From Herbidospora sakaeratensis (lineage in GTDB: Bacteria > Actinomycetota > Actinomycetes > Streptosporangiales > Streptosporangiaceae), in the NCBI RefSeq assembly GCF_001570525.1, contig NZ_BBXC01000007.1:938679-1002678 (forward strand): a stretch of 64,000 nt of DNA, given 5' to 3'. Each line of letters starts with the position of its first letter. The stretch's first letter is position 1. A model generated the notes under the pieces. The model saw only the letters and a program-made list of their open reading frames with translations. It had not been told where the DNA came from and did no database searches. The position numbers were made by a program, and so were the translations under genes. Positions 41,819-58,262 of this stretch are shown one piece after another.

Positions 41819-44800
41819 TCAGAACTCCTCCTGCTGCACCATGAGCCGCACGTCGTCGAGGTAGGGGTCGAGCTCGCCCGGGTCGAAGCGGCACATCGCG
41901 ATGGCGAACCAGAACTCGCCGTGGACGTTGCCCTCCTGCTTGTAACGCCCGTCGGGGGCGAAGGCGGCCCACCCGCCGGGCACCCCGAGCAGGCTGACCC
42001 TGCGGACCGGTTCGGGGCCCGACAGGTCCCACAGGATGATCAGGCCGTCGTTCCCGGCCGAGGCCAGCAGCGGCTCGGCCGGGCTGAACGCCACCGACAC
42101 CACCCGGCGCGAGTGGCCCGCCAGCGTGTGCAGGTGACGGCCGGTGGCGACGTCCCACAACCGCACGAGCCGGTCGTCGCCGGCCGTCGCAAGGATCGAG
42201 CCGTCGGTGCTGAAGTCGCCCGTCCACAGGCGGCCCGTGCCGGTGGCCAGCGCCTGCAGCTCACGGCCGGTGGTGTGGTCCCAGATCCGGGCCACGCCGT
42301 CGTTGCCGATGCTGGCCAGCGCCGTGCCCATCGGGTTGAACACCACCCGGTAGACGCGGTCGGTGTGCCCCGACATGATCCGCAGGCACTCGCCCGTGGC
42401 GGCGTCCCAGACGCGGACCAGCCGGTCGTCGCAGCCCGTCGCCACCAGGCGGCCGTCGGGGCTGAAGTCGATCGAGCGCACCCGGCCCTGGTGCGGGGCC
42501 GGCCTGGTGACGTGGGTGTTGCTGGTCCGGTACCAGAGCTGGAGCGTGTCGTCGTCGTTGGCGGTGGCCAGCACCTTGCCGTCCGGGCTGAACGCCTGCG
42601 CCCAGACCGACTCGGTGTTGGTGTCGAGTTCGCGTTCGAAGTCCCAGCCCGCCGTCTGCCGCAGGTGCACCGCGCCGTCGTTGGTGGTGGTGGCGATGCG
42701 CTCGCCGTCGGGGCTGAACACCGCCGAGGTGAGCTGGTCGTTGACCCCGCTGAACTCCTTGATCAGCCGCCCGGTCGGCGGCTCCCAGATGCGCACCGCC
42801 CCGTCGTTGCCGCTGCTGGCCAGCATCGTGCCGTCGGGGGAGAAGTTCACCGAGGTGACCCGGCGGCCGTGCCCGCGCAGGGTGCGCGTCAGCTGGCCGG
42901 TGCCCAGGTCCCACAACCGGATCGAGTCGTCGTTGCTGGTGGTGGCCAGCTGCGCGCCGTTGGGGTGGATCGCGAACGGCCAGATCGACCCCCGGTGCCC
43001 GGCCAGCCCCGCCCTCGGCTGCCCCAGCTCGCCCTGCCACATGCGCAGCGACCCGTTGCTGTCGACGCTGATGAGGTTCTTCCCGTCGGGGGTGTACGAC
43101 ACCTGGTAGACCGCCCCGGTGTGCCCGGCCAGCTGGCGCGGCACCAGCGGGGCGCGCAGGTTCCACACCCGGATGGTGCCCATGGTGTCGCCGGTGGCCA
43201 GGTGGGTGCCCTCGGGGTGGAAGTCGACGGCGTAGACCCGCCCGGGGTGGCCGCGCAGCTCGTGCACGACCCGCCCGCTCGCCGTCTCGAACAGCCGGAT
43301 CAGGCCGTAGTGGTCGCCGGCGGCCAGCAGCGACCCGTCGGGGCTGAGCGCCAGCCGGTAGACCGGCCCGGTGCCCTCCGACAGCACCACCCGCAGCTCG
43401 CCGGTGGTCAGGTCCCACACCCGGACGTTGGCGGAGGCGTCGCCGGTGATCAGGCTGGTGCCGTCGGGGCCGAACACCGCCGTGTAGACGGGCGGGGTGT
43501 GCCCCGGCAGCTCGCAGCGCAGCGCACCGGTCGCGGTCTCCCACACCAGCAGCGTGCCGTCGGGCGACCCGGCCGCCAGCAGGGTGCCGCCCTCGTTGAA
43601 CAGCAGCGGCCAGACCCCCTTGGGATGCACCGGCAGCACGTGGGCGCACTCGCCGGTCGCGGTGTCCCAGATCCGCACGTCGCCGTCGGCCGACCCGGTG
43701 GCCAGCAGATCCTGCGCGCCGAAGGCCAGGGCGTAGGCCCGGTCGCGGTGCCCCCACAGGGTGCGGACCGGCCGCCCCGAGGGCGCCTCGAAGACCATCA
43801 CCCCGCCGTTGTCGCAGCCCACCGCGAAGATCTGCCCGTCGGTGTTGTACGCGATCGGGTTCGGCAACCGGGTCGTCAGCGGGTCGAACCCGTAGGGCAC
43901 GCCCACCGCCGGGGGAGCGACCTGCACCTCGATCGAGCAGCCCGGCACCACGGCGGCGTCGCGCAGCTCCGGGGCGCGCAGCACCCGGTCGCCCGCCGTC
44001 ACGTTGACCAGCGTGGCCCGCGTCCACCGGCTGCCCGACACGACCGCGTCGCGCAGGTCGGTTCTGGCCAGCCGGGCCCGGGTCAGGTCGGCCCCGCGCA
44101 GGTCGGCGCCGGTCAGCCGGGCCTCGTCGAGCCAGGCGCCGGCCAGCTTGGTGCCGCGCAGGATCGCCCGCGACAGGTTGGTGCCCACCAGCCGGGCGTC
44201 GGTCAGGTCGGCGTCGGTGAGGTCGACCTCCTGCAGGTCGCGGTGGGACAGGTCCTCGCCGCGCAGCTGCGCGCCGCGCAGGCTCGTCTGGGCGGGGGTG
44301 CGCAGCCTGGTGATGATCTTGAGGGCGTTCTTGCGCGCGGTGTTCCCGGCCCCGGGGTCGGCCAGCACCCGGTCGGCCCACAGCTGGCAGTCGTGCGCCT
44401 CGGCCAGGTCGCACAGGAAGTCGACGGTCAGCTGCGACAACTCCCGGCGGCTCAGCGCGGTCGGGTTGGCGCGGTCGCGGCCGAACTCGTCGGCGATGAA
44501 GTGGGCGACCAGCCACTCGGCCACCGACCCGTGGATGAACCCGAACAGGCCGTCGTAGGTGCGCACCAGCAAGCTCGCGGTGCCCACGGTGTGGGTGGCC
44601 TGCTCGCCCGACATGCGCCCGTCGGCCAGCCCCGACAACGTCTCGGCGACCTCGGCCAGCTCGGCCAGCCGCAGGTAGGGCTCGTTGGTCTCCCAGAGCC
44701 GCATCGCCAGGGTGCGCACGGCGTGCCACAGGTCGGCCTCGTCGAGCCCGGCCTGCGCGCCGCGCTGGTTGCCCAGCCGCCGCTGCTCGTAGCGCAACCA

Positions 44801-47521
44801 GGTGCCGAGGATCTCCTGGTAGAGCGTGGCCGCGCTGACGGTCCGGTGGGCGTGCGCGACCGCGCGCAGCCGGTCGTCGGCCAGGTCGGCGATGAAGGTC
44901 AGCATGCGCGGGTTGCGGGCCAGCCCGCTCAGGTCCTGGATGCTGCGCAGCAGCCGGAGCCGCTCTTCGGCCAGCGCCCGGTCGCCGTAGGCGTTGATCA
45001 GGTAGGCCAGGACCTGCTCGGACGAGAAGCCCTCGATGCTGAAGACCCGCCGCTGCGGCAGGATGCCGACCATCTCGCCGAGCTTGGTGAACACCTGGGC
45101 GTCCGACTTGAAGTGCTGGGTGCGGCTCGCGACGACGATCTTCGCCTGGTCCTGCGCCGCCTGGAGCAGGGTCTCGAGGTGGTCGGCGGCCCGGTCGTAG
45201 GTGACCCGGGTGACCAGTTCGTCGAACCCGTCGAAGAACAACACGATCCGGCCCTGCCGGAGCATGTACTGGACGGCCTTGAGGTCGATCTGGTCTTCGC
45301 CGTGGTTGGCCAGGTGGGCGGCGATCAGGGTCTCGACCGAGTGGGCCTTGTCGAGGGTGCGCAGGTCGATCAGGATCGGCGTCAGGTGGGGGGTCTCGGT
45401 GGCCATCCGCCGGACCACCTGGCGCAGCACGAACGTCTTGCCGCGCCCGAAGTCGCCCAGCACCAGCACGAACCTGCCCTGGTCGCCGTGGAGCTGGGAG
45501 ATCAGCTCACCGGCCAGGTCGTGGCGGATCTCGCCGCCGGTCGGGTCGAGCTCGCGGTAGTCCTGGGTGACGTAGAGGTGGGCGGGGTAGGTCGTGTCGG
45601 CGTTCAGCTGCCGGGTCTGCGCCGCGACGTAGCCCGACAGGTCGACCAGGCCCTGGAACTCGATCAGGCTGCGCAGCCGCACGCCCCGGCGGGCCGCGTC
45701 CTCGCGCAGGCTGCGCGGCGGGGTCGGGCCCAGGTAGACCAGCTCGGCCGACTGCCCCATGTGGCCCGCGTGCACGTGGCGGACGAACTCGTCGACCTCG
45801 TCGGCCGTCGGCTCGCCCACGATCACGCCGGCCCAGAACTCCCGGACGAACCCGCCGTCGCGGTAGCTGACCCGCAGGTGGGGCGGGTCGTCGTCGACGG
45901 TCCGGATGACGGCGTGGTCGAAGCGGGTCTCGCACGCCTCGGCGACCCGGTCGAGCAGCTGGGCGCGCGGCCCCTGCGCCCGCGCCGGGGCCGGCCGGTC
46001 GGGCTCGGGACCGCCGACGGCCAGCGGCACCGGCACCGCGCCCGGCGCGGGGAAGATCCCGCCGGCCGAGATCCAGCGCCGTTCGACCGTGTTGGGCGGC
46101 GCGCTGGTGCGGTGGACGACCAGGCCGTCGGGGGTGAACTCGAGCACCTGCTGGCGGCCCGGCTCCAGTGGCGGCAGCACGAGCGCGCCGGCCCCCAGCT
46201 CCGACGGGTCGCCGTCGCGCCCGCCGCCCTGCAGGATCGTGTGCAGCTTGCCGCCGAGCAGCCCCTCGACGACGGCCGCGTCGGTGAGCGACTCGGGGTG
46301 GCCCGGCGTCAGGGCGTGGTGGACCACGCCGAGGCGTAACCAGCCCTCCCGCTCGAAGGCGCGCACCCGCTCGGCGAACCACGCCGCCTGCGACTCGCCC
46401 ACCAGGCCGAACCGGTGCTCGGTCCGGTGGCTGATCGCCATCGTCGAGTTGAGCCCGGCCACCACGACCTTGATCTCGGGGATCGCGAAGAGCGTCCACG
46501 GCTGGGCGCTGTCGAACATGACCGAGTCGACGCCCTGGTAGAACTCGCGGAACAACGACGCGAAGTGCCGCCACTTCGGCCAGTAGGGCGCCTCGGGGCG
46601 TTCGTCGTCGGCCTTGCAGTCGTTGAAGTAGGCCTCGCAGGCGGCCAGGTTCACGTCGCGCGCGCCCGGCACCAGCACCACCCGCTGGGGTTCGAGCCCG
46701 GCGAGCGCGCGCAGCCCCGTGAGGAAGGTGAGCGCGTCGGTCATCTGCTTGCGGCTGCCCGCCGCCGTCAGGTCGCCGGCCACCACCATCAGCTCGGGCC
46801 GGGGCACCCCCGCGTCGGTCAGCCGGGTCAGCTCGGCGAAGATGTGGGACTGCAGGCCGGCGGGGCTCAGGGGCGGCTCGGCGCCCATCGTGCGGCCGAA
46901 CCGGGGGCCCGCGACGTGGAGCACGCTCAGGCTGTCGCGCCGGGCCGGCGGCTCGAAGTCGGCCGGATAACCCGGCGGCACCACCGGCACCCGGCGGGCC
47001 CGCCGCTGCCCGGTGAGCACGGTCGGCCGGGGCGAGGTGAGCGGCGCGGGCGGCTCGGCGCCGGACCCGGGGGTCGGGAAGGCGGGGCGTGACTCGGGCT
47101 TGGCCCGCCCGGCCAGCGCCTCGCGGATGCGGGTCAGCACCAGCCCTCGCGCGTGTTCGGGGGTGGTCACCCCGACGAGGTCGACCCACGTGATGTTCGA
47201 GAGGAGCCCGTCGACCCGGCAATCCTCGATGCGCACCGTGATGAGTTTGTTTTCTGGATTATCCGGATTGGCGCGGAGCGCCGCCTGCCATTCGAGTTTC
47301 CCGTAACGCGAACCCAAATAGTTCTCGGTCAGCAGGGCGAGGACGACGGCGGCCTCCCGGACACCTCGGTCCATGAAGTCGACGAAATTGGTGCCGGGTA
47401 CGAAATCCCAGGCCTGCAGCATGGTGCGGTATCCTGCTGCCTCGAGTTCCCAGCCCAGCCACGACGCCCAGCGTTCGTCAGCCGGAGAGTAGCTGATGAA
47501 AATGTCGATCGGCCGCTCCAT
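41819..47521 (-). CDS. TIR / phosphoesterase-like / NACHT NTPase / pentapeptide / WD40 giant protein
   Basis: A 1900-residue multidomain protein. Residues 5-135: TIR domain (IFISYSPADERWASWLGWEL) with a candidate NADase Glu at ~77 (GKLEWQ). About 195-475: calcineurin-like phosphoesterase remnant (VVAGDLT, VLVPGARDVN for the usual GNHD, VVHHALTPGHP), probably inactive because several metal ligands differ. About 515-640: unassigned. About 685-1000: NACHT NTPase, Walker A GDFGRGKT (689-696), Walker B LFFDGFDEL (761-769). About 1078-1165: pentapeptide repeats. About 1215-1840: about 14 WD40 repeats. Such proteins fit prokaryotic NLR-like conflict sensors, where the repeats sense and TIR is the toxic effector. 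That role is inference. The frame is intact. Confidence 0.93.
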   Translation of the reverse strand: MERPIDIFISYSPADERWASWLGWELEAAGYRTMLQAWDFVPGTNFVDFMDRGVREAAVVLALLTENYLGSRYGKLEWQAALRANPDNPENKLITVRIEDCRVDGLLSNITWVDLVGVTTPEHARGLVLTRIREALAGRAKPESRPAFPTPGSGAEPPAPLTSPRPTVLTGQRRARRVPVVPPGYPADFEPPARRDSLSVLHVAGPRFGRTMGAEPPLSPAGLQSHIFAELTRLTDAGVPRPELMVVAGDLTAAGSRKQMTDALTFLTGLRALAGLEPQRVVLVPGARDVNLAACEAYFNDCKADDERPEAPYWPKWRHFASLFREFYQGVDSVMFDSAQPWTLFAIPEIKVVVAGLNSTMAISHRTEHRFGLVGESQAAWFAERVRAFEREGWLRLGVVHHALTPGHPESLTDAAVVEGLLGGKLHTILQGGGRDGDPSELGAGALVLPPLEPGRQQVLEFTPDGLVVHRTSAPPNTVERRWISAGGIFPAPGAVPVPLAVGGPEPDRPAPARAQGPRAQLLDRVAEACETRFDHAVIRTVDDDPPHLRVSYRDGGFVREFWAGVIVGEPTADEVDEFVRHVHAGHMGQSAELVYLGPTPPRSLREDAARRGVRLRSLIEFQGLVDLSGYVAAQTRQLNADTTYPAHLYVTQDYRELDPTGGEIRHDLAGELISQLHGDQGRFVLVLGDFGRGKTFVLRQVVRRMATETPHLTPILIDLRTLDKAHSVETLIAAHLANHGEDQIDLKAVQYMLRQGRIVLFFDGFDELVTRVTYDRAADHLETLLQAAQDQAKIVVASRTQHFKSDAQVFTKLGEMVGILPQRRVFSIEGFSSEQVLAYLINAYGDRALAEERLRLLRSIQDLSGLARNPRMLTFIADLADDRLRAVAHAHRTVSAATLYQEILGTWLRYEQRRLGNQRGAQAGLDEADLWHAVRTLAMRLWETNEPYLRLAELAEVAETLSGLADGRMSGEQATHTVGTASLLVRTYDGLFGFIHGSVAEWLVAHFIADEFGRDRANPTALSRRELSQLTVDFLCDLAEAHDCQLWADRVLADPGAGNTARKNALKIITRLRTPAQTSLRGAQLRGEDLSHRDLQEVDLTDADLTDARLVGTNLSRAILRGTKLAGAWLDEARLTGADLRGADLTRARLARTDLRDAVVSGSRWTRATLVNVTAGDRVLRAPELRDAAVVPGCSIEVQVAPPAVGVPYGFDPLTTRLPNPIAYNTDGQIFAVGCDNGGVMVFEAPSGRPVRTLWGHRDRAYALAFGAQDLLATGSADGDVRIWDTATGECAHVLPVHPKGVWPLLFNEGGTLLAAGSPDGTLLVWETATGALRCELPGHTPPVYTAVFGPDGTSLITGDASANVRVWDLTTGELRVVLSEGTGPVYRLALSPDGSLLAAGDHYGLIRLFETASGRVVHELRGHPGRVYAVDFHPEGTHLATGDTMGTIRVWNLRAPLVPRQLAGHTGAVYQVSYTPDGKNLISVDSNGSLRMWQGELGQPRAGLAGHRGSIWPFAIHPNGAQLATTSNDDSIRLWDLGTGQLTRTLRGHGRRVTSVNFSPDGTMLASSGNDGAVRIWEPPTGRLIKEFSGVNDQLTSAVFSPDGERIATTTNDGAVHLRQTAGWDFERELDTNTESVWAQAFSPDGKVLATANDDDTLQLWYRTSNTHVTRPAPHQGRVRSIDFSPDGRLVATGCDDRLVRVWDAATGECLRIMSGHTDRVYRVVFNPMGTALASIGNDGVARIWDHTTGRELQALATGTGRLWTGDFSTDGSILATAGDDRLVRLWDVATGRHLHTLAGHSRRVVSVAFSPAEPLLASAGNDGLIILWDLSGPEPVRRVSLLGVPGGWAAFAPDGRYKQEGNVHGEFWFAIAMCRFDPGELDPYLDDVRLMVQQEEF
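42004..43879 (-). repeat. WD40 repeat array within the NACHT protein
   Basis: About 14 tandem units of roughly 42 codons each, with the pattern GH....V....F.PDG..LA....D...R.WD..TG. Copies differ clearly at the protein level, and synonymous sites also vary, so this is an old array rather than a recent DNA-level amplification. The units should close into two seven-bladed propellers. These would be the ligand- or phage-sensing end of the protein. Confidence 0.85.
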
Positions 47522-47556
47522 GACGCCGGTATCACCCGCCTCGCCGGAATGAAGTC

Positions 47557-48792
47557 ATGATACTTTCTACCGTGGGCGACGAAGGGTCACCGTCCGTGCC
47601 GTTCTGGAAACGGGCCGTACGAGCACCGAGTGTACTCGATTGGATTCGAATCGGCCTGCTTTTCATCGGGGTCGGTTGCGTATTGACGGGTCTGCTGCCG
47701 ATTGCCGAGGCGCGGGCGAGCGTCGAGCGAATAGCTCCGCTCATGCTGTTTCTGGTCAGCGTTATCGTGCTGGCCGAACTCACCAAAGAGGCGCAGGTAT
47801 TCGACGTCATCGCGGCGCGGCTCGCGCTGCTGGGCCGGGGGGCCTATCCGGCGCTGTTCCTGCTGTGCGTCGCGTTCGCCTCGGCCACCACGATCTTCCT
47901 CAACCTCGACACCACGGCGGTGCTGCTCACGCCCGTCATGCTGGCGCTCGCCCCGCGGGCGAAGATCGCGCCGCTGCCCCTGGCGATGACCACGGTCTGG
48001 CTGGCCAACACCGCCAGCCTGCTGCTCCCGGTGAGCAACCTGACCAATCTGCTGGCGCTCAACAAGCTGGGCCTGTCGGCGCCCGAGTTCGCGGTCCGCA
48101 TGTGGCTCGCGCAGACGGTCGCGATCGCCGGCACGATGGTGTTGTTGTGGGTGTTCTACTGGCGGCGCGGGGTGCGCGGGGCCGACCGCTACGAGCCCGC
48201 CCCGCCCGAGCCGATCAGAGACCCGGTGCTGTTCTGGGGCACCGGCGCGGCCTGCCTGCTGTTCATCGCGGCGATCCTGGCCGGGGTGCACATCGAGGTC
48301 GCGGCGATCGTCGCCGCCGCGCTGGCGGTCACCGCCTACCTGTTCCGCGACCGCGCCGCGCTGCGCCCCTCGCTCATCCCGTGGCAGCTGATCGTGTTCG
48401 TGACCGGGTTGTTCCTGGTGGTGCCGACGCTGATGCGCCACGGCCTGAACGACCTGATGACCTGGCTCGTCGGCACGGGCGAGGGGTTCGCCGGGCTGCT
48501 GCGCACCGCCGCCGCCGGCGCGGGCCTGTCGAACACGGTCAACAACCTGCCCGCCTATGTCGCGGGCGAGCAGGTCGTGCCCGCCGCCAATCTCGACCAG
48601 TTGCTGGCCCTTCTGGCGGGCACCAATGTCGGCTCGGTCATCACGCCCTGGGCGTCGCTGGCCACGCTGCTCTGGTTCGAATGGTGCCGCCGCCGCGACG
48701 TCAAGGTGCCATTGGGGAAATTCGTGCTGACCGGGGCGGTGCTCGCCATTGTCCTGCTGCCCTCGGTGGTCTGGGTGCTGACGTTCACCTGA
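47557..48792 (+). CDS. ArsB/SLC13-like membrane transporter
   Basis: A 411-residue membrane protein with about 11 hydrophobic helices. Landmarks of the ArsB/NhaD (ion transporter) superfamily are LNLDTTAVLLTPVMLALA near residue 125, LANTASLLLPVSNLTNLLAL near 150 and GLSNTVNNLPAYVAG near 325. They correspond to the paired re-entrant loops of that fold. Members move arsenite, Na+/H+ or carboxylates. Only 35 bp separate it from the divergent TIR-NACHT gene. The start is uncertain; GTG codons a few residues in are alternatives, and the ribosome site is weak. Confidence 0.85.
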   Translation: MILSTVGDEGSPSVPFWKRAVRAPSVLDWIRIGLLFIGVGCVLTGLLPIAEARASVERIAPLMLFLVSVIVLAELTKEAQVFDVIAARLALLGRGAYPALFLLCVAFASATTIFLNLDTTAVLLTPVMLALAPRAKIAPLPLAMTTVWLANTASLLLPVSNLTNLLALNKLGLSAPEFAVRMWLAQTVAIAGTMVLLWVFYWRRGVRGADRYEPAPPEPIRDPVLFWGTGAACLLFIAAILAGVHIEVAAIVAAALAVTAYLFRDRAALRPSLIPWQLIVFVTGLFLVVPTLMRHGLNDLMTWLVGTGEGFAGLLRTAAAGAGLSNTVNNLPAYVAGEQVVPAANLDQLLALLAGTNVGSVITPWASLATLLWFEWCRRRDVKVPLGKFVLTGAVLAIVLLPSVVWVLTFT

Positions 48793-48808: not shown

Positions 48809-49453
48809 ATGTCGGGTCTTCCGGTTTACGACGCGGTGCTGTTGCCCGGCGCCGAAGTCGAAGAACGTTCGACACGCCTGAGCGCGTGGTGCGCGGAATT
48901 CGCGCCGGTCGAATTCACGCTGCGGAGCGGTGCGCTCTATCCGCACATCTCGCTTTACATGGCGAATTTCGAATCATCCCGGCTGGGCGAGGTGGGCGAG
49001 ACGCTGCGCCGCGTCGGCGCGGCGACCCCCGGGATCCCGCTCGAAGGCGGCCATTTCGCCGCCAACGACCAGGGCATGTTCGAACTGTTCTACCGGAAGA
49101 CCGCCGCGGTCACCCGGCTCCAGGAAGACCTGCTCGCCGGGCTCGGCCCGCTGCGCACCGGGCTGCGCGAACGCGACCCGGTCGGCCGGGTGCTGGCCGA
49201 GCACCGGCTCGTCGCGCCGCCGGAGGCCCGCGCCAACCTCGACCGCCACGGCTACGACGAGATCGGCGGGCTGTTCCGCCCCCACATCACCCTGACCCGG
49301 TTCCGCGACCGGGGCCGCCAGGTGCCCGCCGACCTGCTGCCGCCGGTCGGCTCGTTCGACGAGGTCTACCGCACCCTCGCGTTGTGCGTGATGGGGGAGC
49401 ACGGCACCTGCACCGAGGTCGTCGAGGTGGTGGAGCTGGGCTCAGCCGTCTGA
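48809..49453 (+). CDS. 2H phosphoesterase (2'-5' RNA ligase-like)
   Basis: A 214-residue protein with the two His-x-Ser/Thr motifs of the 2H superfamily: YPHISLYM near residue 48 and FRPHITLTRF near residue 158, each followed by hydrophobic residues as in the family. 2H enzymes cleave or ligate 2',3'-cyclic or 2'-5' phosphodiesters, including oligoadenylate-type signals. It begins 16 bp after the transporter and is probably in one transcript with it. Proximity to the TIR-NACHT gene makes a role in nucleotide signalling or RNA repair conceivable. The GAAATATAGACTGAGCCC leader has no strong ribosome site. Confidence 0.85.
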   Translation: MSGLPVYDAVLLPGAEVEERSTRLSAWCAEFAPVEFTLRSGALYPHISLYMANFESSRLGEVGETLRRVGAATPGIPLEGGHFAANDQGMFELFYRKTAAVTRLQEDLLAGLGPLRTGLRERDPVGRVLAEHRLVAPPEARANLDRHGYDEIGGLFRPHITLTRFRDRGRQVPADLLPPVGSFDEVYRTLALCVMGEHGTCTEVVEVVELGSAV

Positions 49454-49493: not shown

Positions 49494-50147
49494 TCAGCCG
49501 GTGGTGTACTGGGCGGCCAGGCCGGCGGTCGCGACGGCGGCGGCCCTGGCCGACTCGGCGTCGCCGCACACGTGCCGGCGCTGGGTGTGGCTGGGCGCGT
49601 CGAGCGGCCCGAGCGACAGGTCGGCGCCCGAGCGGATCATCCGCCCGAGCGCGACGGTCGCCGCCTCGCCCGAGCCCTCGATCACCGTGCTGTGGAAGAC
49701 GCCGGCGGCCAGCGAGTAGCTGTCGCCCGCGCCGAACCGCTCCAGGCGTTCGGGCCGGTAGTCGACCACCCGGCCGGTGGCCGTGATGACGTCGTCGTCG
49801 CCGCGCCCGCCCACCTCGAAGAGCCGGTGGACGGTCCCGTCGGAGACCCGGCCGAGGACGTTGCACACCCGGCCGTACAGGACGAAGCTCAGCAGGTCCC
49901 AGCTGTGGCAGTGCACCAGCGAGGTGCTGCTGCCCGAGGTGGTCAGCTGCGGCGACCAGATGTGCAGGCAGACGCCCAGGTCGCCGTCGCGTTCGACGGG
50001 CAGGCAGAAGAAGCCGAGCGGGTGGCGCACCGCCGGGACGCGCAGGGCCCCGGCGGTGACCGCCTGGAGCACCGACCCGGCCCATGCCGGGATGGTCGAG
50101 GCGGCGGTGCCCTGGTCGATCTCGTGCCGTAGATCGGAGTAGCGCAT
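49494..50147 (-). CDS. Cupin / cysteine-dioxygenase-like protein
   Basis: A 217-residue single-domain cupin. HCHSWDLLSFVLYGRVCNVLGRV near residue 80 matches cupin motif 1 with two candidate metal histidines. GDSYSLAAGVFHSTVIEG near residue 142 is motif 2 with a third. The shape recalls cysteine-dioxygenase-like proteins, but I see no cysteine-tyrosine pair I could assert. It is 21 bp downstream of the membrane protein gene on the same strand. The substrate is unknown. Confidence 0.72.
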   Translation of the reverse strand: MRYSDLRHEIDQGTAASTIPAWAGSVLQAVTAGALRVPAVRHPLGFFCLPVERDGDLGVCLHIWSPQLTTSGSSTSLVHCHSWDLLSFVLYGRVCNVLGRVSDGTVHRLFEVGGRGDDDVITATGRVVDYRPERLERFGAGDSYSLAAGVFHSTVIEGSGEAATVALGRMIRSGADLSLGPLDAPSHTQRRHVCGDAESARAAAVATAGLAAQYTTG

Positions 50148-50168: not shown

Positions 50169-51194
50169 TCACCGGTAGGGCTCGGCGGGCGGCAGCGCGC
50201 GGCGGGTCAGGTCGGCCACCTCCGGGTCGTCGAGGTGGTCGAGTGACAGGCCGAGCATCTCGAAGACGTCGCGCACCTCGTCGACCGTCGGCTCGTCGCC
50301 GAGCGAGGCGGTCAGCACGTTCTCGACGGGCAGCTTCCGCGACTGGGCGAAGCTGGCGTTCAGCTCGGTCTCGCACCAGGCGTAGTAGAGCTTGCCCTGG
50401 TGGGCCAGCAGCGCCGGGGCGGTCGGATCCTCGCGGGTGACCACGACGCGCGAGGCGGACATGTCCCAGCGGCAGGTCGACATCGTCGCCGACAACCCGA
50501 CCCGGATGGTGAGGAAGTCGGTGTGCCGGGCGTACCAGCTCGCGGCCAGGATCGTCGCGTACGCCTCCCTGCGGACGCGGTCGGCCGTCCAGGGGTCGGC
50601 GCGGTTGGTGAGGAGCGACTGGCGGAACCGGGCGTACACCTCGCAGGTGATCGGGTTCTCGGGGTCGATGATCTCCAGCTGCACCTGGAGGCGGCGGCGG
50701 GCGACCCGGGAGTGCTCCACGCACTCGGGCAGGGTGACGCCGCGGACGAAGGCGCCGGTGCCGCCCTTGAAGATCCACGTGTTGGTGTGCTGGGCCGCCG
50801 CCAGGAGTTCGGCCCCCACCTGCGCGCCCGGCAGCAGCGACACCACCGACATCTGGTCGATCGCCTGCCGCGACTTCTCCAGCAGTTCGGAGACCTCGCC
50901 GAGCCGCTCGGGCACCTGGTGCAGCGCCTCGCCCGAGTCGGTCAGCGCCCGCCGCAGCTCGTTCTCGACCGCCCCGGTGCGCATCCGGCTGCGCACCAGC
51001 GTGCTGGCGATCAGGGCGAGCACGACGAGCGTGGCCTCCTGCACCGGCTGGTCCACGGCGTCGGTCAGGCCCCAGATCGCGACGCCCACGGCGATCAGGA
51101 ACGCGATGACGACCTCGGGTTCGTCGCGCAGCCAGGCGAACCGTTCCGCCAGCGACTGCCTGCGCGTATCGCCCCCGCCGTGCTCGACCGACAT
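50169..51194 (-). CDS. Two-TM protein with soluble C-terminal domain, unknown
   Basis: About 341 residues. Two adjacent hydrophobic helices lie at ~28-45 and ~52-68, followed by a coiled-coil-like linker (~75-120), then a soluble domain of ~210 residues. That domain begins NTWIFKGGTGAFVRGVTLPE, continues RRRLQVQLEIIDPENPITCEVYARFR, and contains REAYATILAASWYARHTDF. The strand-loop pattern ending in IIDPEN is reminiscent of the first half of phospholipase-D-like domains, but no HKD motif is present. I do not assign a function. Similar TM-plus-soluble-domain proteins accompany conflict systems, hence the note on context. Confidence 0.68.
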   Translation of the reverse strand: MSVEHGGGDTRRQSLAERFAWLRDEPEVVIAFLIAVGVAIWGLTDAVDQPVQEATLVVLALIASTLVRSRMRTGAVENELRRALTDSGEALHQVPERLGEVSELLEKSRQAIDQMSVVSLLPGAQVGAELLAAAQHTNTWIFKGGTGAFVRGVTLPECVEHSRVARRRLQVQLEIIDPENPITCEVYARFRQSLLTNRADPWTADRVRREAYATILAASWYARHTDFLTIRVGLSATMSTCRWDMSASRVVVTREDPTAPALLAHQGKLYYAWCETELNASFAQSRKLPVENVLTASLGDEPTVDEVRDVFEMLGLSLDHLDDPEVADLTRRALPPAEPYR

Positions 51195-54410: not shown

Positions 54411-55445
54411 TCAGAGGGTGCGCCGGGCCATCAGCGTCGACAACGCCGTGAGCTCGGCCGCCGGGCGGGCCGCGCAGCCCGCCTCCGCCAGGTGCACGGG
54501 CGCCCGCGCGAGCAGCCCGTCGGCGGTCTCCCGGCACCAGTCGCGGCCCCCGGCCCGCTCGACCAGGTCGGCGGCCCTGGCCAGCTCGGCGTCGGACAAC
54601 ACGGTGCCCGACCGGTAGATCGCGGCCAGCTCCGCGGCCTCCCCGGTCGCGGAGGTGAGCGCGGCCACCACCGGCAGCGACTTCTTCCGGTTGGCCAGGT
54701 CGGAGAACACCGGCTTGCCGGTCACCTCCGGGTCGCCCCAGATGCCGAGCAGGTCGTCGGCCAGCTGGAAGGCCAGCCCCAGCTCGGCGCCGAACGTGCG
54801 CAGGTGCTCGATCGCCCGCGCGTCGGCTCCCCCGTAGAGGGCGCCCAGCGCGCAGGCGCACGCGATGAGCGCGCCGGTCTTCGACCCGGCCATCCGGATG
54901 CACTCCGGCAGCGTCACGTCGGCCCGGTCCTCGAACCCGACGTCGGCGCTCTGCCCGTCGAGCAGGTCGAGCACCGTCGCGTTCAGCAGGCCCGCCCCCT
55001 CGTGGGCCAGCGGATGGCCGCTCTCGGCCAGCCGCGCGAACGCCAGCGACACCAGCGCGTCACCGGCCAGGATCGCCTGGCTCACCCCGAACACCCGCCA
55101 CGCCGTGGGCCGGTGCCGCCGGGTGGCGTCGCCGTCCATCACGTCGTCGTGCAGCAGCGAGAAGTCGTGGACGAGCTCGACCGCCACCGCGGCAGGCAGC
55201 GCCCCCTCGGCCGTCCCGCCCACCGCCTCGGCGGCCAGCAGCGCCAGCGCCGGGCGCACCGACTTGCCGGAACCGTTCGCGGTCGGCCGGCCCCGCTCGT
55301 CCCACCAGCCCATGTGGTAGCCGGAGATGTGCCGCATCGAGGCCGGCAGGGTGGCGGCCGCCTCCCGGATCGCCGGCTGCACCAGGTCGCGGCTCCAGGC
55401 GAGCACCTCCGCGACGTCGCGAGCCCCCGTCTCGGTCGTCGTCAT
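54411..55445 (-). CDS. Polyprenyl diphosphate synthase, probable encapsulin cargo
   Basis: A 344-residue trans-prenyltransferase. The first aspartate-rich motif is [10 protein letters not shown] and the second [31 protein letters not shown] is the IPP-binding region, and [18 protein letters not shown] is the C-terminal landmark. It condenses IPP with allylic diphosphates; chain length cannot be fixed by eye. Its ATG overlaps the shell-1 stop (ATGA), so it is made together with the encapsulin. Family 2B encapsulins are known to be paired with prenyltransferases or terpene synthases carrying disordered N-termini. Here the stretch before the fold is short (~8 residues up to [10 protein letters not shown]), so the loading signal is not obvious. 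Confidence 0.93.
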
Positions 55446-56809
55446 CGATGCCCGAGTTCCACGTTCTCCAGGACGCCGAGCGCGTCCGGGATCAGGATCG
55501 CCGCCGAGTAGTAGGCGCTGACCAGATAGTTGATCACCGCCCGGTCGTCGACGCCCATGAACCGCACGTTGAGGCCGGGCTGGTATTCGTCGGGGATGCC
55601 GGTCTGGTGCAGGCCCACCACGCCCTGGTTGTCCTCGCCGAGCCGCATCGCCATGATCGAGGTGGTGCGGGCCTCGCTGATGGGCAGCTTGTTGCACGGC
55701 AGGATCGGCACCCCCCGCCACGCGGTCAGCCGCACCCCCTCGACCTCCACGTTGGTCGGGTAGACGCCCCGCTTGGTGCACTCGCGGCCGAACGCGGCGA
55801 TGGCCTGGGGGTGGGCCACGAAGTACTGCGTCTTGCGGCGGCGGCAGAGCAGGTCGTCCATGTCGTCGGGGGTGGGCGGGCCCGACCGCGACTGGAGCCG
55901 CTGCTTCAGGTCGGCGTTGGCGAGCAGGCCGAACTCGCGGTTGTTGACGATCTCGTGTTCCTGGCGCTCGCGCAGCGCCTCGATGGTCAGCCGGAGCTGC
56001 TGCTCGACCTGGTCCATCGGGTCGTTGTAGAGGTCGGCCACCCGCGAGTGCACCCGCAGCACGGTCTGCGCGACGCTCAGCTCGTACTCGCGGGGCGAGG
56101 TCTCGTAGTCGACGAACGTGCCCGGCAGCGCCGCCTCGCCGTGGTGGCCGGCTGCGAGCGCGATCTCGGCCTGCCCGTGCCGGTCCTGCGGTCGTTCGGG
56201 GCTGCTCCGGTACGCGTCCACGTGGGCCCGCAGCGTCTCGAAGCGGTCGGCCAGCTCCTCGAACGCGCGCCGGCCCAGCGTCAGCACCGTGCCCGCCGTC
56301 GTGGCCTTCACGGTGAACTCCCACGTGCCGGGCGCGAGCAGGGCGTGATCGCCGACGTGGTCGCCGTCGCCGAGGAGGCCGAGCGCGGTCTCGCCCCCGT
56401 AGGCGCCGGTGCCGACCTTGGTGAGCTTGCCGTGCGCGACCAGGATGACCTCGTCGGCCTGGTCGCCCTGCCCGGCGATGACGTCGCCGGCGGCGAAGTC
56501 GCGCTGGGAGAACCGCCCCGCGAGGGCCTCGAGGGCCTCGGGGTCGTCGAAACCGCGGAGGAGGGGGAGTTCGGTGAGCTCGGCCGGGATGACCCGCACC
56601 TGGCCCGACTGGACGGTGAAGGTGACCCGCCCGTCGCCGACGGCGTAGGACAGGCGCCGGTTGACCCGGTAGGCGCCGCCGGAGACCTCGACCCAGGGCA
56701 GCACCTTCAGCAACCACCGGCTGCTGATGCCCTGCATCTGGGGGACGGTCTTGGTGGTGGTGGCCAGTTTCCTGGCTGCCGCCGTGCCCAGGCTCAGTTG
56801 ATCGTTCAC
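55442..56809 (-). CDS. Family 2B encapsulin shell protein with cNMP-binding-like insert, shell 1 (EshA-like)
   Basis: A 455-residue HK97-fold shell protein. It opens [23 protein letters not shown], the family 2 N-terminal arm. Residues ~90-205 form an inserted cyclic-nucleotide-binding-like domain ([35 protein letters not shown]). The rest ([38 protein letters not shown] to the C-terminus) is the shell fold. The GTG start is preferred because AAGGGA precedes it. In the cNMP pocket the usual GE...RA(A/T)V cassette reads GD...GTWEFTVKA, lacking the phosphate-binding Arg. It is coupled to the prenyl synthase by ATGA. It probably co-assembles with shell 2. Confidence 0.93.
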
Positions 56810-56837
56810 GGCACTCCCTTGCTGGTGGGAATCAAAA

Positions 56838-56871
56838 AGGGCGGCCCGGGAATTCACGCGTGGGCCGCCCT
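56838..56871 (-). terminator. Intrinsic terminator or attenuator between the two shell genes
   Basis: Read on the minus strand, AGGGCGGCCC (56871-56862) pairs perfectly with GGGCCGCCCT (56847-56838) across a 14-base loop, and the stem runs straight into TTTTT. It lies between the shell-2 stop (56886) and the shell-1 start (56809), within a 76-bp gap. This is a textbook Rho-independent terminator in mid-operon, or an attenuator letting part of the transcripts read on. The same gap has the shell-1 ribosome site. Confidence 0.8.
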
Positions 56872-56885
56872 GGGGGAACCTTTTT

Positions 56886-58262
56886 CTAATGACCGACTTC
56901 GACGTTCTCCAGAATTCCGAGGGCGTCGGGGACGAGGATCGCGGCCGAATAGTAGGCGCTCACCAGATATTTGATGATGGCCTTCTCGTCGATGCCCATG
57001 AAGCGCACCGAGAGGCTCGGCTGGTATTCGTCGGGGATGCCGACCTGGTGGAGGCCGACCACCCCCTGCTTCTCCTCGCCGAGCCGCATCACGATCATCG
57101 AGGAGGTGCGGGTGTCGGTCACCGGGATCTTGTTGCAGGGCAGGATCGGCACCCCGCGCCACGACGGGAAGTGGTGCCCCCCGACGTCGACGCTGGTCGG
57201 GTAGACCCCGCGGGCGCTGCACTCCCGCCCGAAGGCCGCGATGGCCAGCGGGTGGGCCAGGATGTACGACGGCTCCCGCCACACCAGCGACAGCAGCTCG
57301 TCGACGTCGTCGGGGGTCGGCGGGCCCGACCGGGTGTGGGTGCGCTGCTTGAGGTCGGCGTTGGCGAGCAGGCCGAACTCGCGGTTGTTGACGATCTCGT
57401 GCTCCTGGCGCTCTCGCAGCGCCTCGATGGTCAGCCGGAGCTGCTGCTCGATCTGGTCCATCGGGTCGTTGTAGAGGTCGGCCACCCGCGAGTGCACCCG
57501 CAGCACGGTCTGCGCGACGCTCAGCTCGTACTCGCGCGGTGAGGTCTCGTAGTCGACGAACGTGCCGGGCAGCGAGGGCTCGCCGTGGTGGCCGGAGGAG
57601 ACCTCGATGGCGGCCTCGCCGTATTCGTCCTGCGGGCGGCCCGAGCCGGCCTGGTAGGACTCGACGTGGGCGCGCAGCGCGTCGGACTGGTCGACCAGCC
57701 GCTCGAACTCGCCGCGGGGGAGGGTCAGCACGGTGCCGGCGGTGGTGGCCTTGACCGTGTAGTCCCAGGTGCCGGAGGCCAGCAGGGTCTGGTCGCCGAT
57801 GTGGTCGCCGTCGGCCAGCAGGCCCAGGGCGACCTGGTCGCCGTAGGGGCCGGTGCCGATCTTGGTCAGCTTGCCGTGGGCCACCAGGATCACCTGGTCG
57901 GCGGGCTGGCCCGCCTCCACGATGACGTCGCCGGCGGCGAAGTCGCGCTGGGTGAAGCGCTCGGACAGGGCGGTCAGGGTGTCGGGGTCGTCGAATCCGC
58001 GGAGCAGGGGCAACTCGGTGAGCTCGGCCGGGATCACCCGGACCTGGCCCGACTGGACGGTGAAGGTGACCCGCCCGTCGCCGACGGCGTAGGACAGGCG
58101 GCGGTTGACGCGGTAGGCGCCGCCGGAGACCTGGACCCAGGGCAGCACCTTCAGCAACCACCTGCTGCTGATGCCCTGCATCTGCGGGACGGTTTTCGTG
58201 GTGGTGGCCAGTTTCCTGGCCGCCGCCGTGCCCAGGCTCAATTGCTCGTTCTCAACGGTCAA
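56886..58262 (-). CDS. Family 2B encapsulin shell protein with cNMP-binding-like insert, shell 2 (EshA-like)
   Basis: A 458-residue shell paralogue, roughly three-quarters identical by eye to shell 1, with the same order: N-terminal arm ([21 protein letters not shown]), cNMP-like insert (~90-205; [21 protein letters not shown]), then the HK97-type fold ending [25 protein letters not shown] chose a TTG start with AGGAG five bases upstream; the frame stays open well beyond it but without family residues. The divergence is largest in the cNMP insert and the surface loops. EshA of Streptomyces, a relative, influences antibiotic production and ppGpp levels. It is the first gene of the operon, with its own promoter at 58346-58375. 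Confidence 0.92.

Follow-up and report, generated by a model that had tools for sequence, protein, structure and literature searches.

The window analysed here, a stretch of 64,000 nucleotides from Herbidospora sakaeratensis, was found to carry a gene (designated T) encoding a 1900 amino acid (aa) protein in a single open frame, which starts with ATG and runs on the minus strand from 47521 to 41819 (coordinates 41819–47521). The plus-strand frame opposite contains two internal stops. As the T frame is conserved in 80 loci, a chance frame or an annotation artefact was ruled out. The T product includes, in order, a TIR domain (TIR_2, residues 7–118; coordinates 47168–47503), a degenerate calcineurin-like phosphoesterase (MPE, approximately residues 199–495; 46037–46927), NA-iREase3 (a NACHT-associated inactive restriction endonuclease, residues 520–628; 45638–45964), a NACHT P-loop NTPase (residues 683–842; 44996–45475), pentapeptide repeats (approximately residues 1080–1178; 43988–44284) and WD40 repeats (42002–43864), all encoded on the minus strand. 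The MPE was placed using NCBIfam and by alignment to relatives that pass Pfam Metallophos, and the other domains using Pfam. TIR_2 scored 118.8 bits against a cut-off of 28 (E 2.5e-34 on the TIR piece), NA-iREase3, located before NACHT, 129.5 bits against 27 (E 1.3e-37), and NACHT 50.8 bits against 26.7, with Pentapeptide and WD40 also above their cut-offs. The WD40 region consists of 14 Pfam stretches spaced mostly 42 aa apart, and its blades are diverged, with a mean identity of 31% among 12 of them.

A first-pass annotation had described a TIR-phosphoesterase-NACHT-pentapeptide-WD40 protein of 1900 residues in one intact frame with about 14 WD40 units, and the Pfam and NCBIfam profiles bear this out. 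It had not recorded the minus strand, the NA-iREase3 domain (which falls within its residues 515–640), the conserved neighbouring genes or the relatives with a live phosphoesterase. TIR_2, NACHT, Pentapeptide and WD40, the profiles it had expected, were recovered in the window protein, but no Pfam family was matched by the phosphoesterase-like piece. The roles that it proposed, with the WD40 end as sensor, NACHT oligomerising and the TIR killing or signalling, are still inferred.

Conservation was examined in a set of 81 T-type proteins, comprising the window protein and those from the best 80 loci of 118 stretches encoding a relative. The candidate catalytic Glu77 of the TIR domain, located within GKLEW (residues 74–78), is kept in all 79 proteins that include this stretch, the TIR stretch of L020 and L068 being missing at contig ends. 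The Walker A (GDFGRGKT, residues 689–696) and Walker B (LFFDGFDE, residues 761–768) motifs proposed earlier are present, and Lys695, Asp764 and Glu768 are kept in 81/81. Homologues uniformly lacking Glu77 and the Walker residues, the pattern named by the first-pass annotation as speaking against its reading, are contradicted by these counts.

In known families, NACHT domains assemble and TIR domains consume NAD+. The NACHT of T would, by analogy, assemble in an NTP-driven manner, and the TIR is probably a live enzyme that may be active as an NADase. However, the best PDB matches of the TIR were animal TLR/MyD88 TIRs, which have the glutamate in common with T and which are not known to be NADases, and this tempers the NADase assignment; the shared glutamate is at most necessary for such activity. 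Five families in PADLOC-DB matched T at E 0.01, all within residues 2–115 and including bSEFIR and Aga_TIR, the latter presumably an Argonaute-linked TIR, and no PADLOC-DB system matched T beyond the TIR part at this threshold. The likeness to these two families and to Thoeris III ThcB4 (NCBIfam, 16.7 of 220 bits) is partial, as only the TIR matches.

The NCBIfam model that matches the phosphoesterase is DS9_1_antiphage (residues 234–406, E 2e-14), although the score of 53.3 bits is far below the model's cut-off of 420. The placing of its metal motifs is supported by the match of a profile built from eight MPE rows, of which six keep every ligand, to the PDB chain of Rv0805 (E 2.2e-14). In the window protein, the ligand columns are occupied by G205, R207, D250, A287, R288 and H402, and there is no GHxH. 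The altered metal ligands reported in the first-pass annotation proved general, with one to three of eight kept in each of the 81 T-type proteins (two in 73 proteins, three in seven and one in one). Column 205 is Gly in 81/81, column 207 is Arg in 70/81 and column 402 is His in 81/81.

T was not confined to the window. The order of domains, previously thought uncommon, turned out to be common in the group, and loci in Herbidospora, Nonomuraea, Microbispora, Streptosporangium, Actinomadura and Streptomyces (11 of the best 80 loci) have it. Four Herbidospora species have stretches 96–97% identical to a 485-aa MPE-iREase query. Matches were found in 131 of 297 genomes of the order, and exclusion of six with distant relatives only leaves 125/297 with an ortholog, whole or in part (fragments only in G125, G132 and G171), and 172/297 with none; these genome-wide counts rest on the MPE-iREase match and not on a TIR in each genome, and L131 in the T clade has no TIR. 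For two genera, judged from places shared with known loci, 50/54 Nonomuraea genomes and 49/65 Actinomadura genomes match, the latter becoming 48/65 (five only partial) when the distant relative in G160 is removed, with one match at E 1e-60 in each matching genome. In the family of the Streptomyces-like genome G319, 20/249 genomes match. A phylum-wide profile search, with three candidates scored per genome in the matches listed, gave the window genome alone among 396, a result that is not taken to show absence from the others.

T is dispensable, as defence genes are, since it is absent from 172/297 genomes and has been lost or has decayed at loci where the neighbouring gene B remains (T is decayed, a remnant or gone in L148, L152 and L155). 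T has also moved between genomes at least once, as G181 contains two copies, the canonical one and a second in a Herbidospora-like T-B-H-M block (T and B both 87% identical) without C and X. Of five ORFs tested around the G181 copy, four matched metabolic or cupin families and one matched none. Carriage of T by mobile elements was considered and rejected, as no match was found in 50,697 phage records and the only match in a plasmid collection was to an 11.85-Mb, chromosome-sized record.

The genes next to T were found to form a recurrent block. Gene B (47557–48792, plus strand), encoding an ArsB/CitMHS-type membrane transporter, is divergent from T with 35 nt between the start codons, and is followed by H (48809–49453, plus strand), the product of which is weakly 2H-phosphoesterase/LigT-like (below Pfam cut-offs). 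C (49494–50147, minus strand) encodes a weakly cupin-like protein (below the Pfam cut-off), and M (50169–51194, minus strand) a protein with two apparent TM segments, judged by eye, and a soluble domain with a conserved W..KGGTG motif that is invariant across 19 members. A longer M ORF reaching 51815 is probably over-extended. Neither Pfam nor the PDB yielded a convincing match to profiles of M and C. A further gene, X, encoding an inositol-monophosphatase-like protein (IMPase), is present in 72/80 loci; it is present in L011–L014, whereas neither L010 nor any part of the window matched it. M, C, B and T are all found in 73/80 loci, the other seven being short on that side. H accompanies the block in 6 of these 80 loci (best 80 of 118), and also in L154 and L155.

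Upstream of T, a -10-like ATACC motif (47528–47532, minus strand) lies 11 nt before the ATG. After exclusion of L020, L040 and L068, 54/77 orthologs have ATAC[TC] 11 nt (44 loci) or 12 nt (10 loci) before an in-frame ATG/GTG, whereas 200 mononucleotide shuffles gave 1.6 on average and never more than 5, though the motif was picked after viewing 18 of the same upstream regions. The motif is missing from 23 orthologs, among them each of the 10 Streptomyces loci tested. It is a candidate -10-like element, from which a leaderless T message may be produced.

Whether T works with its neighbours depends on how the block came to be conserved. Inherited synteny with no working relation between T and B, X, C or M is a real possibility, though we lean against it. 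In its favour, 60/80 loci have coaE or uvrB (recognised from their PDB matches) in the flank that was fetched, and M and C are 5–8 kb from B in L039, L042, L047 and L048 (L039 and L047 being Microbispora relatives) and inverted in L050. B (E 1e-90) is present in 123/125 genomes with T against 20/172 without, and C (E 1e-15) in 123/125 against 9/172, but shared descent, which confounds co-occurrence, is uncorrected in these counts. However, the 20 loci without coaE/uvrB are those of the four Herbidospora, Acrocarpospora, 11 Streptomyces and, on short contigs, L040, L062, L063 and L070, and M, C, B and T occur together with neither of these genes in the fetched flank in Acrocarpospora, 3/4 Herbidospora and 9/11 Streptomyces, the rest starting at contig ends. 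Two Herbidospora genomes (G101 and G097) have intact flanks with no match to T, B, H, C or M between them, a B-like gene that is 59–60% identical being located elsewhere in each, and the extra T-B-H-M block in G181 likewise argues against synteny alone.

The same observations bear on the idea that T is the receptor of a multi-gene membrane system, in which the TIR would not be an NADase and would serve either as a homotypic interaction module or as the source of a signal nucleotide read by M or B. The TLR/MyD88-like TIR, the co-occurrence of B and of C with T, and the retention of the M-C-X-B-T set in other genomic settings are consistent with this, but the PADLOC bSEFIR and Aga_TIR models match the TIR, G060 has T, X, C and M without B, and the second block in G181 is without C and X, so that we consider such a system quite improbable.

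The phosphoesterase was further examined in the relatives. Nine proteins outside the T clade have the iREase-NACHT-pentapeptide chassis. All eight ligands, together with a Metallophos score over the cut-off, were found in L123, L124, L125 (cut by a contig end before the WD40 part), L127, L128 and L130 (in which the chassis is divided over two overlapping frames), and none of these six has a TIR. The phosphoesterase forms the N-terminal start of all of them but L127. In L126, L127 and L133, Trypsin_2 is located at the N-terminus, fused before phosphoesterase-iREase-NACHT-WD40, and the ligands kept are 3/8, 8/8 and 2/8, respectively. L129 retains 2/8 ligands, and no effector domain was seen by eye in its upstream frames. 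A rule that the phosphoesterase is dead only when another effector has been added was therefore rejected, as L129 is dead without a new effector and L127 has all ligands beside its trypsin domain.

Of 11 relative stretches, L132 was left out of the trees (weak MPE match), and L131 was included in the iREase-NACHT tree only; 26 of the 81 T-type rows were used in the iREase-NACHT tree and 20 in the phosphoesterase tree. The dead MPE domains fall in separate groups in both, with long branches for L126, L130 and L133 in the iREase-NACHT tree. A single loss of activity followed by domain shuffling was disfavoured, as forcing the dead MPE domains into one clade cost 33 log-likelihood units (p-AU 0.049), but this support is borderline and the constraint was chosen after seeing the tree. 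Gly is found at the ligand-Asp column 205 in L126, L129 and L133 as well as in T, and Arg at the next ligand column in L126 and L133 as well as in most T-type proteins, and for this reason the changes look like repeated remodelling rather than plain decay. L131 includes a 2367-aa frame (L131:2661-9761) with the order NNH7, NACHT, NA-iREase3-type stretch, NACHT, pentapeptide and WD40. In the iREase-NACHT tree it clusters with the T proteins (fork support 92/99), with NNH7 and the second NACHT replacing the TIR and phosphoesterase.

To estimate selection, dN/dS was counted pairwise for each domain within four genera (5, 5, 6 and 6 sequences), giving averages and not values for single sites. Every T domain is under purifying selection on average, the TIR most (mean dN/dS 0.025–0.105, the lowest domain in all four genera) and WD40 least (0.08–0.39 for the WD40 halves, one half being the highest in each genus at 0.15–0.39). 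The dead MPE domain is still constrained, its mean of 0.11–0.27 being near that of NACHT (0.08–0.26). A diversifying sensor was rejected, as no mean exceeds 0.39, though a WD40 half is the highest in each genus and averages allow positively selected sites.

According to PMC13092281, the DefensePredictor metallophosphatase systems DS-8 and DS-9 are validated in phage defence, and both the phosphatase and the NACHT residues of DS-8 are needed for defence. DS-8 combines a metallophosphatase with NACHT, and the MPE of T resembles DS9_1 while its NACHT part weakly matches the NCBIfam DS8 model. However, T is below both curated cut-offs (53.3 of 420 and 19.9 of 790 bits), has lost the metal ligands, and has a TIR in front as well as iREase, pentapeptide and WD40 parts. 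It is probable that a live phosphoesterase effector akin to that of DS-8/DS-9 was superseded and kept as a scaffold, and we read the relatives as a case in which effectors were exchanged while the receptor stayed the same and the former enzyme was retained as structure. As DS-8 defence needs its phosphatase and NACHT residues, the live ancestor plausibly served as an effector in defence, by analogy. The series of live MPE alone, trypsin with live MPE, trypsin with dead MPE and TIR with dead MPE resembles successive stages of effector replacement preserved in nature, with the old enzyme kept as a scaffold. Ternary and TRADD-N conflict systems (PMC7159879, PMC8195603), whose effectors are of the TIR, trypsin or calcineurin type, use the same interchangeable effector pool as T.

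Bacterial NLR-related (bNACHT) proteins defend against phage and have an effector, NACHT, sensor plan, according to PMC12169576, and T has this plan with its Walker motifs. T differs in having a dead phosphoesterase and a domain of an inactive-nuclease family between effector and NACHT, and in being frequent and single-copy. Among NCBIfam models, HyoA scored 13.4 of 1200 bits for T and EruA at most 45 of 1000 for the relatives. T could be an ordinary single-gene antiphage bNACHT, in which a phage protein, directly or via a host chaperone, would trigger NACHT assembly and abortive infection by the TIR. The architecture, the coupling of metallophosphatase and NACHT in DS-8, the loss or decay of T in some genomes, the transfer of the block to G181 and the fastest evolution in the WD40 part would all fit. 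However, this appears rather unlikely given the single matches in most genomes of two genera, the adjoining coaE or uvrB in 60/80 loci, the low mean dN/dS of the WD40 halves and the absence of T from the phage records.

Most genomes of two genera have T in a single copy, it usually lies within the block, and each of its domains is on average under purifying selection. For these reasons, a trigger that is conserved or comes from the host is more likely than a phage protein that changes rapidly; a sensor for the latter is hard to reconcile with a single-copy gene close to fixation, though WD40 evolves faster than the other parts. With roughly even confidence, T is therefore proposed to be an NLR-like (STAND/NACHT) TIR switch for NAD+-consuming arrest or death that responds to a conserved or host-derived trigger. 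The resting protein would be kept closed by its WD40, pentapeptide and helical parts, and on triggering the NACHT domains would bind NTP and assemble, so that clustered TIR domains could consume NAD+, or make a nucleotide signal, and the cell would be stopped or killed. The phosphoesterase would be a dead remnant of the live effector still at the same place in relatives, serving with NA-iREase3 as a rigid adaptor, and T may guard a cell process, perhaps its own block partners. Several observations count against this reading: dN/dS peaks in a WD40 half in every genus, as a conflict sensor might show, the best PDB matches of the TIR are TLR/MyD88 TIRs, T is dispensable and has moved between genomes, and L129 has a dead phosphoesterase without a new effector.

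A further, improbable, reading is that T is a core-genome NLR that filamentous actinomycetes use as a housekeeping switch for death or dormancy, with the dead MPE now a phosphate- or nucleotide-binding sensor. It is similarly improbable that this sensor reports to the TIR, with the transporter, IMPase, cupin-like and two-TM proteins supplying it or being guarded. Work on NLR-like proteins of bacteria usually treats them as antiphage genes of patchy occurrence, whereas T is found in most species of two soil actinomycete groups. A single-copy gene in a defined block provides a genetic handle on whether NLR-like receptors guard normal cell functions, a possible example being programmed death in mycelial bacteria.

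Apaf-1-like and fungal NLRs share a plan of STAND and WD40, and the WD40 part of T matched Apaf-1, among other PDB entries, although the T blades have diverged. No description of the T architecture or block was recognised in the open-licence literature searched (including PMC7159879, PMC8195603 and PMC10907252), a scope outside which most subscription papers fall. The ligand loss set against TIR-less live relatives, the block and the per-domain purifying selection are new here.

The window's genome contains twelve NACHT matches, one of which is just outside the window at C7:1008899. Beyond M, an encapsulin region (54411–58250) includes an encapsulin-type shell protein (SrpI-like with a cyclic-nucleotide-binding domain; coordinates 55442–56857, minus strand), a second encapsulin-type copy with 78% identity (56889–58250, minus strand) and a polyprenyl synthetase domain within 54411–56717 (minus strand).
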